Assembly (NCBI RefSeq): GCF_033971325.1
Contig: NZ_CP117180.1
Coordinates: 378,041-442,040 of the forward strand
Length of the DNA: 64,000 nucleotides
From: Hydrogenobacter sp. T-2
GTDB lineage: Bacteria > Aquificota > Aquificia > Aquificales > Aquificaceae
Direction: 5' to 3'
Below the pieces are notes generated by a model, which was not told the origin of the DNA, ran no database searches, and saw only the letters and a list, made by a program, of their open reading frames with translations. The stretch's first letter is position 1, and each line of letters opens with the position of its first letter. The position numbers were made by a program, and so were the translations under genes. Below, piece after piece: positions 36,936-42,711 of this stretch.

Positions 36936-37661
36936 GTGAGTGGTGTTTTGAGAGGGCTTGTGGCCCTCCTTTTTCTTATAAATCTTTCCCTTTCTCAAGA
37001 GGCTTCAACGGGAATACCACCCAACGAGAGAAGAACTCTTGGAAAGGAGCTTCCTGATGTGCTTTTGGTAGACTCCTTAGGAAGAGAGTTTAACCTTCAC
37101 ACTCTCAAGGGAAAACCCATTATCTTAAGCCCCATATATACACACTGCAACTCCGCCTGCCCCATAATAACGGACTCTCTAAAGAAGGTAGTTCCAGCAC
37201 TTGGAAAACCCGGTGAGGACTTTTGGGTTCTTTCCTTCACCTTTGACCCCTTAGATGGACAAGAAGACATAGTAGCCTTTCAGGAGAAATACGGTCTTGA
37301 CGGTGAAGGCTGGAAGGTAGTTAGGGCAAAGACAAAAGAAGACCTCTTTAGACTTGTGGATGCCATAGACTTTAGGTTCATGTCTATTCCTAAGACAAGG
37401 GACTTTGTCCACCCTAATCTTGTGGTGTTTATATCTCCTGATATGAAGGTCAAAAAGTATATCTACGGTGTGGTCTTTGATGAAAAGAACATGGTTAAGG
37501 CTCTACAATATTCCTTAGGTGCCAGAGACCTCTTGGAAGATTTTAGAAGTTTTCTCTTCTTTTTTGGTCTTTTAGGTTTGTCCTTTAGCGGGCTATATCT
37601 TGTGATATCCAGTGCAAGACTACTTCAGAAAAGAGAAGAAAGCAGGAATTTTCAAAGGTAA
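36936..37661 (+). CDS. SCO1/SenC-family copper chaperone for oxidase assembly
   Basis: A 241-aa thioredoxin-fold protein that inserts copper into the CuA site or reduces its cysteines. It has an N-terminal signal/anchor (residues ~5-20), CNSACPI with the CxxxC copper motif, the distant His in DFVHPNLVVF, and an unusual C-terminal membrane segment (about residues 203-225) followed by a short basic tail. The start is GTG with GAGGG just ahead. It is the last gene of the oxidase operon. Its end overlaps the convergent acuC-like gene by 10 nt. Confidence 0.9.
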   Translation: MSGVLRGLVALLFLINLSLSQEASTGIPPNERRTLGKELPDVLLVDSLGREFNLHTLKGKPIILSPIYTHCNSACPIITDSLKKVVPALGKPGEDFWVLSFTFDPLDGQEDIVAFQEKYGLDGEGWKVVRAKTKEDLFRLVDAIDFRFMSIPKTRDFVHPNLVVFISPDMKVKKYIYGVVFDEKNMVKALQYSLGARDLLEDFRSFLFFFGLLGLSFSGLYLVISSARLLQKREESRNFQR

Positions 37662-38785
37662 TAAGATAGAGCTTGTTCAACTATCCCTTTTACCTCCTCT
37701 CTAACACCTCCTTCTCTTGGCATATCTAAAAGCAATTCATACATGTAGCTTCTGTCTACCTCATCGTCAAACTCTTCAAAGTCCACAGAAAGCAAAAGCT
37801 CCCTCGCCTTTTGGTTTAGGCTTTTAGGTATGTCCCTCTCTGACATTCTACACCACAAAAGAGTCCAAGCTCTTGCAAGTGCAATAGGGTGGTAGCCTCC
37901 ACCTCCAAGATATATACCCTCCCCAAGCATATCTCTTATTAGGTCAAAAGCCTTAAGAAAGCCCCAGTTGGAGAGCTCAAACTTGGAAAGGTAATCCTCG
38001 CTCAAAACATCTGTTCCCAGCTGGAGAAGGTATACCTCTGGTTTAAAAATCTCTAAAACCTTTGTCAACACCTTCTCAAGGACAAAGAGAAACTCCCTGT
38101 CATTGACTCCCTTAGGAAGTGGAAGGTTAAGGTTATAGCCCTTACCCTTTCCAGAGCCTCTCTCATGGATAAAGCCTTTTTTGAAGGGAAAGGCATACTC
38201 AGGAGACTGGTGGATGGAGAGGACAAACACCCTGTCATCTTCGTAGAAGAAGTCTTGCACTCCGTCGCAGTGGTGTGCATCAAGGTCTATGTATAGGATT
38301 CTCTTATAACCCTTTGAAAGGAGATACTGGAGGGCTACGCCAGGGTCGTTTATAAAACAAAAGCCGTTTGCTCTTGAGGGATAAGCGTGGTGCATACCAC
38401 CCGCAGGATTAAAGGTGGTAAAACCTTCAAGAAACAGCTCCACCGCCTGCACAGAAGAACCAGTGGCAAGCAAAGAACCTCTCCACATGGCTGGAGAGAC
38501 AGGGTTTTCGTAAGTGCCTATGTTAAACCTTTCCCTATATTCCCTCTTTACACACTGACATTGGTCGCATTCTTCAAGAGCTTTGAGATATTCTTCCTCG
38601 TGGAAGAGTCTTAGCTCCTCCCACTGGGCTGGTCTGCTTTCTACAAGCTCCGCCTCTGTGAGAAGACCCATAGCCTTTAAAAGTTCAAGCAGGAGAGAAA
38701 CTCTGGGTATTCTAAGAGGATGGTTCTTGGTGTATCTTAAGTTTCTGTATGCGTAGCTACCTATCAGCCTTGAGCTCTTCCGCAT
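37652..38785 (-). CDS. Histone-deacetylase-family protein (AcuC-like)
   Basis: A 377-aa zinc hydrolase of the HDAC/AcuC/AphA superfamily, which removes acetyl groups from lysines, acetyl-CoA synthetase or polyamines. Zinc and catalytic motifs are intact: AGGMHHAYPSRANGFCFIND with the tandem His, YIDLDAHHCDGVQ with Asp and His ligands, LQLGTDVLSED with the third ligand Asp, and GGGGYH. It overlaps the CBS protein gene by 29 nt in the dapL-symporter-CBS-acuC unit. The true substrate is unknown. Confidence 0.9.
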   Translation of the reverse strand: MRKSSRLIGSYAYRNLRYTKNHPLRIPRVSLLLELLKAMGLLTEAELVESRPAQWEELRLFHEEEYLKALEECDQCQCVKREYRERFNIGTYENPVSPAMWRGSLLATGSSVQAVELFLEGFTTFNPAGGMHHAYPSRANGFCFINDPGVALQYLLSKGYKRILYIDLDAHHCDGVQDFFYEDDRVFVLSIHQSPEYAFPFKKGFIHERGSGKGKGYNLNLPLPKGVNDREFLFVLEKVLTKVLEIFKPEVYLLQLGTDVLSEDYLSKFELSNWGFLKAFDLIRDMLGEGIYLGGGGYHPIALARAWTLLWCRMSERDIPKSLNQKARELLLSVDFEEFDDEVDRSYMYELLLDMPREGGVREEVKGIVEQALSYYL

Positions 38786-40049
38786 AACCCTTTACCAGTT
38801 TATGCACCTCTCTGTAGTTTATGTCTCCTGCAAGCACGTAGTTCTTCTCTCCATAGTTAAACTTCTTTGATACTGTAATACAAAAATCATCCGTTGCCTG
38901 TGAGATGTATATGTTGGAAATGTAAACGTCTTCGTGGCTTGCCTTCTTGAAATACTCCTTTTCTGACCTATCCGCACCCTTTTTCCCAGTTTTTACTGTA
39001 TAAGTAAGCTTTGGGTTTACCACATTGTTGGAAACCTGCAAACCATTCTCTCCTATTATGTAGAAAAGTTCAAAGTAAGGATACTTCTTAAAGAAGTCAT
39101 ACAGAGTAAACTCCCATAGGTCTCTGTCTGTCCTTTTTAGGCTCTCCACTATGCTTTCAAAATCTTGTTTTATTCTGTTTCTTATGTGATGTATAAGCTC
39201 TCTCCTTTCATACTCGCACAAAACCACTGAAGGTTTTTCCTCGTGAAATATAAAGCAAGAGGCATCATGGATATCTTCCATTCTCTTCTTTAACTCCGAG
39301 CTTATTCTGAAAAATTCCTCAAAGTTTTTCAATTTTTTCATAGGTATACAGTATCCAAATAGGTAAACTAGGCTCGCCTCCGAATAAAGCAAAGAAAACT
39401 CCCTCTGAAACTCTCTGTATAGGTTCATAATTTCTTCCTCTTTTAGCTTTATCTTAGAAAGGGCATAGACTTCATTCTCTTCGTAAGATAGGCTTACATC
39501 TCCCTGTATGCTGGTCTTTACCGCTTCATACAGAACTCTCTGAAGGCTTTCCGCCTTTGAAGAGCCATACTCTTCCACAAACTCCTTTAGACCTCTTATG
39601 TAAAAACAGTAAAAGTAGTATTCATGACCGAAGAGAGACCTTAGCTTCTGAAACATGGGAATGGTAGCTTCTTTGAAAAGGCTTGCATAATAGAGAACCA
39701 CGTGGTAGAAGAGGACACCCATGTATGAACCTTTTTTGTCCACAAGTAAAATAGGCAATTTACAGGATTTAAAAAAGTCTAAAAGAGAGGTAAGGTGCTC
39801 TGGCTTTAGTGTTGCTTCCCTTAGCTTCATAAGAGGATGGGCAATATCTCCCACGGTCAAATGCTCTCTGTGCTGAGCTTTAACGAGGTCAAGTTTGTTG
39901 ACTATGCCTATGGGTTTGTTGTTCATTACCACCACCAAAAAGTCATACATGCCATACTCCTCAAAAGCCTTTAGGGCTTCCCTTATGCCAAGGTTGTATT
40001 CTATTTTTGGAATGCCTGTGGCAAGTTGAGAGAGCTTAATCTCCTTCAT
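38757..40049 (-). CDS. CBS-domain and Cache/PDC-like sensor protein
   Basis: A 430-aa soluble protein with two N-terminal CBS domains (about 1-130: YDFLVVVMNNKPIGIVNKLDLVKA and LPILLVDKKGSYMGVLF), a long helical middle (about 130-300), and a C-terminal PDC/Cache-like module (about 310-425: GENGLQVSNNVVNPKL, GADRSEKEYFKKASHEDVYISNIYISQATDDFCITVSKKF). No membrane segment separates them and no output domain such as a complete GGDEF or kinase is seen, so how it signals is not clear. It is inside a transporter operon (4-nt overlap upstream), which suggests sensing of a small ligand linked to it. Family calls are from motif patterns. Confidence 0.75.
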   Translation of the reverse strand: MKEIKLSQLATGIPKIEYNLGIREALKAFEEYGMYDFLVVVMNNKPIGIVNKLDLVKAQHREHLTVGDIAHPLMKLREATLKPEHLTSLLDFFKSCKLPILLVDKKGSYMGVLFYHVVLYYASLFKEATIPMFQKLRSLFGHEYYFYCFYIRGLKEFVEEYGSSKAESLQRVLYEAVKTSIQGDVSLSYEENEVYALSKIKLKEEEIMNLYREFQREFSLLYSEASLVYLFGYCIPMKKLKNFEEFFRISSELKKRMEDIHDASCFIFHEEKPSVVLCEYERRELIHHIRNRIKQDFESIVESLKRTDRDLWEFTLYDFFKKYPYFELFYIIGENGLQVSNNVVNPKLTYTVKTGKKGADRSEKEYFKKASHEDVYISNIYISQATDDFCITVSKKFNYGEKNYVLAGDINYREVHKLVKGYAEELKADR

Positions 40050-41551
40050 AAGTGTGGTCCAGAAAGGTATCTTCTTCTACTTTCTATGGCAATAAAGGCG
40101 AGGAAGACAAGGGTGGCTATTATAAACATGCGTGCAACTGTTACATCCAATCCACCCTGAGCCAATACCTTAGGAGCTTGCACCACACCCCATTGGTATA
40201 GGAGTATTACCAAGAATATGGGAGAAACTATAGCAAAGAAATAAACCAAAGGCTTTGGCACCTTCAAGAATACGTCCCTTGTCAGTTCATGGTGGAACTT
40301 ATGAACTCCAAATATCCACACAAAGACTATTATTTCCACAAGTGCAAAAAAGACAAGCATAAAAGTCCCAGCCCAAAAGTCCACCTCATCTATAAACCCT
40401 GGAAGAAAGGCAGAAAGAAAAGCACCTACAGAAACCATAAGCATAGAAACATTTACCGCCTTTTTGTGAGACCATCTCATCTCATCTTCAAAGAGAGCTA
40501 TTAGAGGTTGCGTAAGTGCAAGGCTTGAAGTTAGTGCTGCGATAAAAAGCAGGAAAAACCATACCGCAGACAAAAGCCAGCCCAAAGGCAGAGCCATAAG
40601 AACCGCAGGCATGGACATGAAGCCCAGCCTAAAGGTACCTTCCTTTGCGAGCTCAGGGACCGCAAGAGCACCAAACATGGCAAAGGCAGCGGGTATAGCT
40701 ATGGAGGCACCTATGACTACCTCCACAAACTGATTAAGACCTGCAGTCCAAAGACCTGTTTTTAACACATCTTCTCTTGCCTTCACATAGCTGGCATAGG
40801 TGGCAATAGCACCCATTCCAAGGGAAAGGGTAAAGAATATCTGCCCCGATGCCTCAAGCCAAACCTGAGGGTCAGATATCCTGCTAAAATCGGGAGTGTA
40901 TATGAAAAGCAGACCCTCTAAGCCTTTACCACCTCTTATAGAAAGAGAGACTATGGCAAGGAAAATACCCATGAGTAAAAGTGCGGGAATGCCTACTTTT
41001 GCGGTAAGCTCAATACCCTTTACCACACCCCTTTGGAGTATATACCAGTTAACCGCAAGGGTAATAATAAGAAAGACTATAGCCAAGTATGAGGGTTCTG
41101 TGTAGCTTTTAAAGAAGTCCACATAGGGTTGCATGGCGGTTTTAGGGTCGGTGCTATCCACAGGATGTGGCAGTTGTCCAAAAATAGAAAGCACCGCAAA
41201 ACCCAGCGTCCAAGACTCAATGTATATGTAGTAGCACACTATGAGAAAAGGTATTGCTACACCTATGGAACCCAACACCCTCGCCCAGTTGGCATGATGG
41301 AAAAGAGAACCCATAATGCCAGTCATAGAGCCATGTCCCTTTGAACCCGCATACCTACCGATAACCCACTCTAAGACCAAAAGAGGTATTCCCAAAAGGA
41401 AAAGAGCCACAAAGTAGGGAATCATAAAGGCACCACCGCCGTAGAGAGCTACCTTAGACGGAAACCTAAGGAGATTTCCAAGACCTATAGCATTCCCCGC
41501 TGCGGCGAATATGAGACCTACTCTTGAAGCCCAGACTTCCCTTTTTTTCAT
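40046..41551 (-). CDS. Neurotransmitter:sodium symporter family transporter (LeuT-like)
   Basis: A 501-aa, 12-helix Na+-coupled amino acid symporter. The first helix carries the unwound ligand site AAGNAIGLGNLLRFP, closely matching LeuT of Aquifex, and helix 6 reads FFTLSLGMGAIATYASYVK, again LeuT-like. LeuT takes up leucine and small hydrophobic amino acids with two Na+ ions; the exact substrate here is unknown. It overlaps dapL by 4 nt and the CBS protein gene by 4 nt. Confidence 0.93.
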   Translation of the reverse strand: MKKREVWASRVGLIFAAAGNAIGLGNLLRFPSKVALYGGGAFMIPYFVALFLLGIPLLVLEWVIGRYAGSKGHGSMTGIMGSLFHHANWARVLGSIGVAIPFLIVCYYIYIESWTLGFAVLSIFGQLPHPVDSTDPKTAMQPYVDFFKSYTEPSYLAIVFLIITLAVNWYILQRGVVKGIELTAKVGIPALLLMGIFLAIVSLSIRGGKGLEGLLFIYTPDFSRISDPQVWLEASGQIFFTLSLGMGAIATYASYVKAREDVLKTGLWTAGLNQFVEVVIGASIAIPAAFAMFGALAVPELAKEGTFRLGFMSMPAVLMALPLGWLLSAVWFFLLFIAALTSSLALTQPLIALFEDEMRWSHKKAVNVSMLMVSVGAFLSAFLPGFIDEVDFWAGTFMLVFFALVEIIVFVWIFGVHKFHHELTRDVFLKVPKPLVYFFAIVSPIFLVILLYQWGVVQAPKVLAQGGLDVTVARMFIIATLVFLAFIAIESRRRYLSGPHL

Positions 41552-42711
41552 AGCTTAAGCCTTTTTATCCTTTCCACAGCCTCAAGAAGTCTTTGAGTAG
41601 GCACAGTGAGGGAAATCCTAAAGTACCCCTCTCCATACTCTCCAAAGCCGTTCCCGGGAGTGCATACTATTCCACACTCATCAAGAAGCCTTGATACAAA
41701 CTCCGCAGAGGTATATCCCTTAGGCACTTTTATCCATAGGTAAAAGGTAGCATCAGAGGGATAGACCTTTAGACCAACCTCTTCGAGGGCTTTTACCATG
41801 GCAGACCTTCTTTCCTTGTATGTATCTCTTATCTTTTGCAGTTCCTCCTCTGGAAGGTTCAAAGCGGTTATACCAGCCTCCTGCACCGCCTGAAACTGTC
41901 CCGAGTCCACGTTTGTTTTTACCTTTCCAAGACCTGCAACCAATTTTTCGTTTCCCACTGCCATACCAAGACGCCAGCCTGTCATATTAAAGGTCTTGGA
42001 AAAGGAATGAAACTCTATGGCTATGTCCTTTGCACCCTCTATCTGTAGGATGGACATGGGTTTTTCATTGCCAAAGTATATCTCCGAGTAGGCAAGGTCA
42101 GAGGCAACAATTATGTTATTTTCCCTCGCCCACTCTATTAGTTCCTTATAGAAAACCTCAGTTGCTGTAGCAGAGGTTGGGTTGTTAGGGTAGTTTACCC
42201 AGATAATCCTTGCCCTCTTTAACACATCCTTTGGAACGCTTTTAAAGTCTGGAAGAAAGCCATTTTCTTCCTTAAGTGGCAAAATATAAGGCTCACCGCC
42301 TGCAAAAAGCGTGCCTATCTTGTATACAGGATAAGCAGGGTCTGGACACAAAACCACATCCCCGGGGTTTACAAAAGCTAAAGGAAAGTGGGCTATACCC
42401 TCCTTTGAACCTATTAGCGTGACCACTTCCCTTTGAGGGTCAAGCTCCACACCAAAGCGTCTTTTATACCAATCCGCTACCGCCTGACGAAAAGAGAGCA
42501 TGCCCTCATAGGAAGGATACCTGTGGTGTTCTGGATTTTCTACAGCCCTTTGCATAGCTTCCACTACAGGTTGAGGCGTGGGGATGTCTGGGTCTCCCAC
42601 CCCAAGGTCAATTAGGTCTACACCCTGAGAAATTTTCTCTCTTTTTTTCTGGTCAATCTGAGCAAAAAGGTAAGGTGGCAAAGCCTTTATCCTCTGGGCG
42701 TATTCAAGCAT
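41548..42711 (-). CDS. dapL: LL-diaminopimelate aminotransferase
   Basis: A 387-aa class I/II PLP aminotransferase. DapL makes LL-diaminopimelate directly from tetrahydrodipicolinate for lysine and peptidoglycan. Features: IDLGVGDPDIPTP, YPSYEGMLSFRQAVADWYKRRFGV, GSKEGIAHFPLAFVNPGDVVLCPDPAYPVY, NYPNNPTSA, SFSKTFNMTGWRLGM with the PLP lysine, and TPGNGFGEYGEGYFRISLT. Other class I aminotransferases (aspartate type) are the alternative. AGGAGGTG precedes the ATG. First gene of the four-gene unit. Confidence 0.9.
   Translation of the reverse strand: MLEYAQRIKALPPYLFAQIDQKKREKISQGVDLIDLGVGDPDIPTPQPVVEAMQRAVENPEHHRYPSYEGMLSFRQAVADWYKRRFGVELDPQREVVTLIGSKEGIAHFPLAFVNPGDVVLCPDPAYPVYKIGTLFAGGEPYILPLKEENGFLPDFKSVPKDVLKRARIIWVNYPNNPTSATATEVFYKELIEWARENNIIVASDLAYSEIYFGNEKPMSILQIEGAKDIAIEFHSFSKTFNMTGWRLGMAVGNEKLVAGLGKVKTNVDSGQFQAVQEAGITALNLPEEELQKIRDTYKERRSAMVKALEEVGLKVYPSDATFYLWIKVPKGYTSAEFVSRLLDECGIVCTPGNGFGEYGEGYFRISLTVPTQRLLEAVERIKRLKL

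Follow-up and report, generated by a model that had tools for sequence, protein, structure and literature searches.

Why does a bacterial gene of the histone deacetylase (HDAC) fold stand last in a string of overlapping genes, behind an aminotransferase, a sodium symporter and a protein with sensory domains? The question is raised by a stretch of 64,000 nucleotides (nt), referred to here as the window, from Hydrogenobacter sp. T-2 (assembly GCF_033971325.1, contig NZ_CP117180.1, positions 378,041 to 442,040), a member of the Aquificaceae (genus code g1) whose genome is a single contig of 1.69 Mb. The deacetylase is of the type of Aquifex HDLP, the first HDAC with a solved structure, and the symporter belongs to the family of LeuT; the Aquifex HDLP and LeuT serve as structural models for human HDACs and neurotransmitter transporters. 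A literature search of partial coverage found no paper on the native gene setting of HDLP or LeuT, or on acetylation in these bacteria. We find that dapL, the sensory gene and the HDLP gene form the core of the string in several Aquificaceae genera, and we propose, tentatively and as something short of probable, that the sensory protein (hereafter the sensor) is a ligand-sensing adaptor that controls the co-encoded HDLP by contact, like AcuB on AcuC. Naming a candidate controller of HDLP provides a natural context for a model HDAC.

The initial annotation had recognized four overlapping genes of DapL, LeuT-like symporter, CBS/Cache and HDAC type (Table 1). Its overlaps of 4, 4 and 29 nt agree with the coordinates, and the family calls are upheld by profiles and closest structures. 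The overlaps are not due to chance, because they recur across loci of the window's genus: the symporter and sensor genes overlap by 4 nt in all seven loci measured (L001-L004, L007, L010 and L013, L001 being the window) and the sensor and HDLP genes by 29 nt in all eight (the same loci and L012). For L003 the 4 nt refer to the homologous start at 1501; the longest frame, with a start further upstream, gives 148 nt. The overlaps suggest that the four genes are translationally coupled. Scanning for promoters and terminators was uninformative (11 and 10 sites versus 8.4 and 6.2 in shuffles). At its 3' end the HDLP gene shares 10 nt tail to tail (window 37652-37661) with a gene of the opposite strand, presumably SCO1-like.

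Table 1. Genes, gene overlaps and sensor modules of the four-gene string (window coordinates).
Feature	Position	Strand	Size and evidence
dapL, LL-diaminopimelate aminotransferase	41548..42711	-	387 amino acids (aa); TIGR03540 655.8 bits vs cut-off 593.25; aminotransferase 6l1l E 9.1e-91
dapL/symporter overlap	41548..41551	-	4 nt
LeuT-family Na+ symporter, separate clade (LeuT-B)	40046..41551	-	501 aa; SNF 190.8 bits vs cut-off 27; Na-site residues kept; V104I, F259M
Symporter/sensor overlap	40046..40049	-	4 nt
Three-module sensor (CBS pair, degenerate GGDEF, Cache)	38757..40049	-	430 aa
Sensor/HDLP overlap	38757..38785	-	29 nt
HDLP-type HDAC-fold deacetylase	37652..38785	-	377 aa; Hist_deacetyl 266.8 bits vs cut-off 27.9; catalytic residues all kept
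CBS pair, sensor residues 1-127	39669..40049	-	Pfam CBS 25.7 bits vs cut-off 24; fold 2ef7 Z 14.7, root-mean-square deviation (rmsd) 2.1, 121 residues
Degenerate GGDEF/cyclase-palm domain, sensor residues ~130-281	39207..39662	-	Predicted-structure fold match; GG[DE]EF and first Asp lost; E193 invariant
Cache domain, sensor residues 282-424	38778..39206	-	Sensor domains of CtaA and PctC matched at fold Z 14.1; invariant presumed pocket residues

To follow the gene order, each of the four proteins was searched against 136 genomes of the phylum (Aquificota), and coordinates were combined from one best row per gene and genome; linkage counts cover 64 Aquificaceae genomes, with genus codes g1 (the window's genus), g2 (Aquifex), g5 (Hydrogenobaculum), g8 (Thermocrinis) and others. 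All four genes are consecutive in 12 of the 14 g1 genomes; of the other two, one (G047) has a contig that ends with the symporter and no dapL match, and the other (G045) has dapL–sensor–HDLP without the symporter. Sensor and HDLP genes are adjacent, at most 150 nt apart, in half of the genomes (32/64), which belong to four genera (g1 14, g3 12, g4 5, g8 1). The dapL gene directly adjoins the sensor gene in 31/64 and is separated from it only by LeuT-B in another 12/64, together representing seven genera. Outside g1, taking L015/L113 and L020/L112 once each, dapL and sensor overlap by 4 nt in 17 of 18 measured genomes and by 1 nt in one (L017), while of the 11 measured genomes with sensor and HDLP near each other, nine show a 4-nt overlap between these two genes and the remaining two have gaps of 84 nt (L021) and 973 nt (L042). 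The symporter lies between dapL and sensor in g1 only and is missing from the dapL–CBS–HDLP string of g3, g4 and genome G050. The string is therefore not one conserved unit; its core is dapL–sensor–HDLP, and insertion of LeuT-B into this core by one Aquificaceae genus is the favoured explanation of the window's arrangement.

No linkage is seen in the seven genomes of g2, the five of g5 or the sole g7 genome; of these, G001, G030 and G033 are complete or almost complete, and the others are in many contigs, where links may be missed. The four genes are far apart in the complete A. aeolicus genome (G001), and G002-G005 concur but are in 130-310 contigs. The initial annotation had looked to conservation of the order for support and to dapL being unlinked, with the other three genes alone, as counter-evidence. 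The first holds for dapL–CBS–HDLP in several genera and for the symporter's place in g1 only; the second describes Aquifex (G001), and elsewhere three of the four genes are linked.

Presence and absence of the genes were compared among high-quality genomes (at least 90% complete, at most 5% contaminated), 42 of them Aquificaceae and 88 in the phylum. The sensor is present in all 42 Aquificaceae genomes, HDLP (52% identity or more) in 38 and a LeuT-type symporter in 28, and HDLP never occurs without the sensor. The full sensor was found only in the Aquificaceae (42/88); outside this family, the phylum search gave partial, weak matches to the Cache or CBS part in 14 genomes. To look beyond the phylum, contigs were scanned once for three peptide patterns of the Cache region; of the 85 stretches returned, 44 are relatives and 41 are not. 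Of the 44, 43 are labelled Aquificaceae, Aquificales, Aquificota or their genera, and the remaining one (L058), labelled Acidobacteria, presumably corresponds to a window-genus contig (G039:C14). A second, shorter HDAC (roughly 30-40% identity) occurs throughout the phylum, and no sensor-like gene was found beside the copy of the window genome (L136 5171-6100). The sensor tree (29 of the 42 rows, rooted by us on Hydrogenobaculum, some inner forks weakly supported) has dapL–sensor–HDLP on both sides of its main split, and the order is for this reason probably old, with several losses of linkage. It should be noted that arrangement labels in this tree were set by genus, and that L041 (G018, without HDLP) and L042 (G010, HDLP 973 nt away) are labelled as having HDLP despite no link.

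The sensor matched no Pfam, NCBIfam or PDB entry as a whole. Its AlphaFold2 model, built with 42 relatives, has a mean predicted local distance difference test score (pLDDT) of 85.6 and a predicted template modelling score of 0.59, so the domain folds are trusted over their mutual arrangement. Residue conservation was read from an alignment (A1) of 42 of the 43 proteins, in which L014, carrying a stop, was left out and L001 was replaced by the window protein; two further alignments (A2 and A3) hold 21 and 23 of these 42. The middle module is, as modelled, a degenerate GGDEF fold. Residues 140-281 folded alone reach a pLDDT of 94.1, and all 50 matches listed by each structure-search program are GGDEF, class III cyclase or Cas10 palm chains (best Foldseek E 1.4e-4; Cas10 first at Z 11.9; DosC 4zvg at Z 11.3, rmsd 2.6, 129 residues). 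This reading rests on predicted structure because sequence profiles miss the domain: it is not detected by the Pfam GGDEF profile, and its own profile gave no GGDEF match against the PDB, the best being PF0523 (E 0.00039, 65 columns), which we read as chance or local similarity. Locating the motif by eye on the modelled hairpin, we find GG at positions 190-191 in none of the 42 rows, an acidic residue at 192 in 4/42 and E193 as the only invariant Glu of the hairpin; an Asp that could be the strand-1 metal ligand occurs in at most 5/42 at any of positions 147-153. The two marks of an active diguanylate cyclase, GG[DE]EF and the strand-1 metal-binding Asp, are thus lost. The initial annotation named the CBS and Cache parts, both of which stand, and missed this third module when it found no nameable output domain; apart from the dead GGDEF, which the profiles miss, no output domain of the sensor was named by Pfam and NCBIfam searches.

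The Cache domain is likewise backed by predicted structure, the Pfam dCache_1 score lying below the cut-off (25.6 versus 45 bits). Its best matches are the sensor domains of CtaA and PctC, which are amino-acid chemoreceptors, and within Z 1 of them are Tlp3 (13.5), the amine receptor McpX (6d8v, 13.3) and YkuI (13.3, rmsd 3.5, 136 residues). The closest folds include amino-acid sensors, in keeping with the initial suggestion that the Cache module senses an amino-acid-like compound. Its sequence profile gave weak matches only in the PDB (Tlp3 E 0.17, PctA E 1), which were used for residue alignment only. The residues described for the amino-acid sensor PctA are Y121, R126, W128, Y129, Y144 and D173 (PMC11245519, PMC10104139). 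Y144 and D173 correspond to the invariant Y381 and D409 of the sensor, W128 to Y366, Y129 to F in 41/42 and R126 to K/R in 38/42, and Y121 is lost (A/S/T); the full set of this dCache_1AA motif is not kept across the 42 rows. R361, S383, T386 and C390 are also invariant.

As to location and origin, the YkuI_C profile (PF10388, cut-off 26) gives 21.0 bits to the A. aeolicus sensor and 13.8 to L036 and does not list the window protein; YkuI_C is described as one of two mainly intracellular Cache families (PMC4822843). We take the sensor to be cytosolic, because its modules are typical of soluble proteins and because of this intracellular bias of YkuI_C. Recruitment from proteins of cyclic di-GMP (c-di-GMP) type is a natural origin, since a related Cache domain (35% over 103 residues) is found on a Hydrogenobaculum EAL protein, and one of the 14 GGDEF matches in the window genome, a high-scoring one, lies in an 831-aa frame that also has four CBS matches.

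HDLP of A. aeolicus (1c3p) is the closest solved structure of the window deacetylase (579 bits), followed in whole-chain score by the two-domain HDAC6 (206 bits in two stretches) and HDAC2/HDAC1 (191 bits). The residues that we take to be the catalytic and zinc positions (H131, H132, D166, D168, H170, D173, D258 and Y297) are present in all 38 HDLP rows, counting the window twice and excluding frames under 320 aa, so that the catalytic site is intact as judged from the alignment. The A. aeolicus enzyme has been placed among class I lysine deacetylases, bacterial polyamine deacetylases falling in another HDAC cluster, and the motifs RPP and XGGY are said to mark robust bacterial deacetylases (PMC11532494). 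XGGY is present as GGGY in the window HDLP.

What might the sensor do beside such an enzyme? In Bacillus, AcuB, a CBS pair with a C-terminal ACT domain, is described as an inhibitor of the HDAC-like AcuC that binds around its active site, under control of diadenosine tetraphosphate (Ap4A) or AMP (PMC13039410, PMC13121692). A ligand-gated adaptor of HDLP is proposed here because the Aquificaceae pair shares the AcuB–AcuC layout with a different C-terminal part. Also in favour are the adjacency of the two genes in four genera with mostly 4-nt overlaps, the apparent age of the three-gene order, the absence of any high-quality genome with HDLP but no sensor, and the loss of the cyclase residues in a sensor that has no other named output. 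Under this proposal the CBS pair and the Cache domain would bind small molecules (an adenine nucleotide, an amino-acid-like ligand or both), the dead GGDEF domain would act as a scaffold or offer an interaction surface, and the sensor would exert its output by direct contact with HDLP, gating protein-lysine deacetylation as AcuB gates AcuC. Such an adaptor would carry the recent AcuB–AcuC idea over to another adaptor architecture. Substrates of HDLP may include acetyl-CoA synthetase; that of the window genome carries RSGKIMR, described as the acetylation site of B. subtilis AcsA (PMC11532494). This enzyme is a possible target of HDLP. As a fixed partner of HDLP, acetyl-CoA synthetase was rejected: TIGR02188 is over its cut-off in 51/64 Aquificaceae genomes, including the HDLP-less G018, G058 and G060, and does not discriminate. 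The window genome has the gene together with what we take to be an acetate permease-like gene and a cyclic-nucleotide-like plus CBS protein (L135 4266-10737; names given from sequence), and in A. aeolicus the synthetase match is split over two adjoining frames (G001:C1:1479276-1481085). The bolder claim that the CBS–dead GGDEF–Cache protein is a second, independently evolved bacterial HDAC controller, binding HDLP and gating deacetylation on an intracellular amino-acid-like ligand and so tying amino-acid supply (through DapL and, in one genus, uptake by LeuT-B) to the acetylome, is one that we consider unlikely. If true, the archetypal HDAC structure would gain a native regulator.

Several observations weigh against an AcuB-like role. 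The sensor has no ACT domain, and AcuB (9s50, E 3.1e-7) is listed by Foldseek at rmsd 8.3 over 226 columns among many CBS proteins, an unspecific match. The canonical CBS nucleotide motif, [ST]xxD, is not conserved, Asp being present in 25/42 at position 54 of CBS1 and in 0/42 at position 117 of CBS2. On the enzyme's side, the RPP motif is replaced in all 38 HDLP rows, A. aeolicus included (NPA 36, SPA 1, SPS 1). Sensor and HDLP are unlinked in g2, g5, g7, g9, g11 and all of g8 but G050 (with some contig breaks), and in G035 (g6, 69% complete) symporter and HDLP are about 50 nt apart and the sensor was not found. Four of the 42 high-quality genomes (G018, G058, G060 and G061) have the sensor without HDLP, there still adjoining dapL, which is its commonest neighbour, so that its role may lie with dapL or with no member of the string. 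Retention of the sensor without HDLP, combined with its wider link to dapL, is the strongest counter-evidence.

For this reason a reading centred on amino acids stays alive: the sensor would mainly serve amino-acid or lysine metabolism, reporting an intracellular amino acid through its Cache domain and affecting DapL (or the symporter) by contact or in some other way, with HDLP as a passenger. We think it doubtful. The dapL–sensor pair is the most widespread of the string, keeps its 4-nt overlap in 17 of the 18 genomes measured outside g1 and is retained in the HDLP-less g10 and G018, amino-acid sensors are among the nearest Cache folds and two PctA residues have invariant counterparts; set against this, a DapL-like match (E 1e-60 or better) is found in all 88 high-quality genomes of the phylum, at about 38-44% identity in most outside the Aquificaceae and hence partly paralogues, compared with the full sensor in 42/88, the amino-acid motif is incomplete, and we know of no precedent for control of an aminotransferase by a CBS–GGDEF–Cache protein. 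It is likewise rather unlikely that the genes merely hitch-hike in an operon, with a shared transcript and coupled translation and no joint function, in a family that shuffles its operons freely. Their separation in Aquifex, Hydrogenobaculum and g7 and the quite different neighbours of HDLP speak for hitch-hiking; against it, dapL, sensor and HDLP recur in this order, overlapping by 4 nt, on either side of the main sensor-tree split, and among high-quality genomes HDLP is present only where the sensor is.

The GGDEF fold itself raises the prospect that the sensor is a receptor of c-di-GMP or GTP, its dead domain still binding nucleotide and reporting to HDLP or other partners. The GGDEF matches in the same genome, which make live c-di-GMP signalling likely, and the related Cache domains on EAL proteins fit this view, which we consider improbable given that the active-site residues are lost and that invariant columns are scarcer in the middle domain than in the Cache domain (3/144 in 23 rows versus 25/153 in 21 rows). 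Least probable of all, and very unlikely, is the pathway offered by the initial annotation, in which the symporter would take up an acetylated amino acid or polyamine, the Cache domain would sense it and HDLP would remove its acetyl group, in the service of lysine or cell-wall metabolism. The unbroken row of four genes in most window-genus genomes speaks for it, while the absence of the symporter from the string of g3, g4 and G050 means that it is not a required part, and the published class I assignment of A. aeolicus HDLP, apart from the polyamine deacetylases, points elsewhere. N-acetyl amino acids are also poor candidates, because the LeuT fold binds a free amino group and lysine synthesis by way of DapL passes through no acetylated intermediates. 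We retain contact between the sensor and HDLP as our working proposal, with the reservations given above.

The symporter, which stands outside the core, has a history of its own. By its sequence it belongs to NSS/SLC6 (LeuT fold), with A. aeolicus LeuT as the closest solved structure (about 452 bits), and the positions that we take to form Na1 and Na2 are as in LeuT at 20, 22, 27, 254, 286, 351, 354 and 355, with I for V at 23. The midpoint-rooted tree of the LeuT family (26 of 34 rows, eight near-duplicates being set aside) separates two clades, each with 100/100 support, on branches of 1.45 and 2.01 changes per column. One holds A. aeolicus LeuT together with other families of the phylum and the other, LeuT-B, comprises g1, g6 and g8; the window symporter was accordingly rejected as an orthologue of A. 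aeolicus LeuT. No genome with both types was found in the phylum search (E 1e-20 or better). I104 and M259 are present in 17/17 LeuT-B genomes (those read among 19 with a match at 68% or more, G053 and G054 being left out), versus V104 and F259 in 10/10 of the other clade. The volume of the substrate site is described as being sensed by F259 in LeuT and by the corresponding Met in MhsT (PMC9599917). Because the pocket differs at 104 and 259, the latter being this volume-sensor site, LeuT-B probably carries hydrophobic amino acids, its preference among them being shifted. The division of the phylum's LeuT-type proteins into two clades with different pockets bears on their natural cargo. The LeuT-B of locus L007 (G038) departs at two positions that all other rows keep, with D at position 20 (LeuT numbering) and I at 254, through sequencing error or an altered transporter. 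Family f3 (G105-G111, e.g., L105 2780-4672) has a LeuT-type protein about 100 residues longer, with a two-piece match and extra sequence near query residue 205.

Neighbours of HDLP vary among genera, with a universal stress protein (Usp) gene in A. aeolicus, a gene we presume from its sequence start to be nrdB-like in one Thermocrinis locus and in G057, and a cupin gene in one g11 locus. The A. aeolicus Usp gene overlaps the HDLP gene by 14 nt and itself lies behind a frame that, from its start, we take to be gyrB-like (L049 4833-6792). The small cupin gene directly precedes HDLP in the g11 locus (L109 3591-3971) and lies near dapL–sensor–HDLP in a g3 locus (L035 9906-10271). A DsbC-like lipoprotein gene (a label checked by Pfam for L095 and L110 only) is directly 5' of LeuT-B in three Thermocrinis loci (L095 4045-4797, L096 5717-6463 and L097 6120-6866) and directly 5' of HDLP in one Hydrogenobaculum locus (L110 4121-4960).

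How does the locus compare with known systems? The window HDLP is 68% identical over its full length to that of A. aeolicus (1c3p), with all catalytic residues kept, but the A. aeolicus gene stands apart from dapL and the sensor gene. The window symporter shares the family, about 46% identity and the sodium-site residues with A. aeolicus LeuT (2a65), yet falls in the other clade, is not its vertical orthologue and differs by V104I, F259M and L400I/V. Structure 4us3, which we take to be MhsT, is far less similar to it (158 bits). MhsT nevertheless has, like LeuT-B, a Met at the LeuT F259 position (PMC9599917). With YkuI-type EAL–Cache and CBS–GGDEF proteins the sensor shares a Cache domain behind a domain of c-di-GMP type, differing from them in its N-terminal CBS pair, its dead GGDEF and the lack of EAL. 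The closest parallel in layout is the acuBC pair of Bacilli. There as here a CBS-pair gene lies directly upstream of a gene of the HDAC fold and overlaps it, by 4 nt in B. subtilis (PMC13039410) and by the same 4 nt in most g3 and g4 loci and G050, although this AcuB-type overlap is not found in all genera. The Aquificaceae system differs in that the C-terminal part of its sensor consists of a degenerate GGDEF and a Cache domain, that its string has dapL (and LeuT-B) and no acetyltransferase gene, and that acs lies elsewhere. The sensor is probably, with modest confidence, a variant of the CBS-adaptor–HDAC kind.

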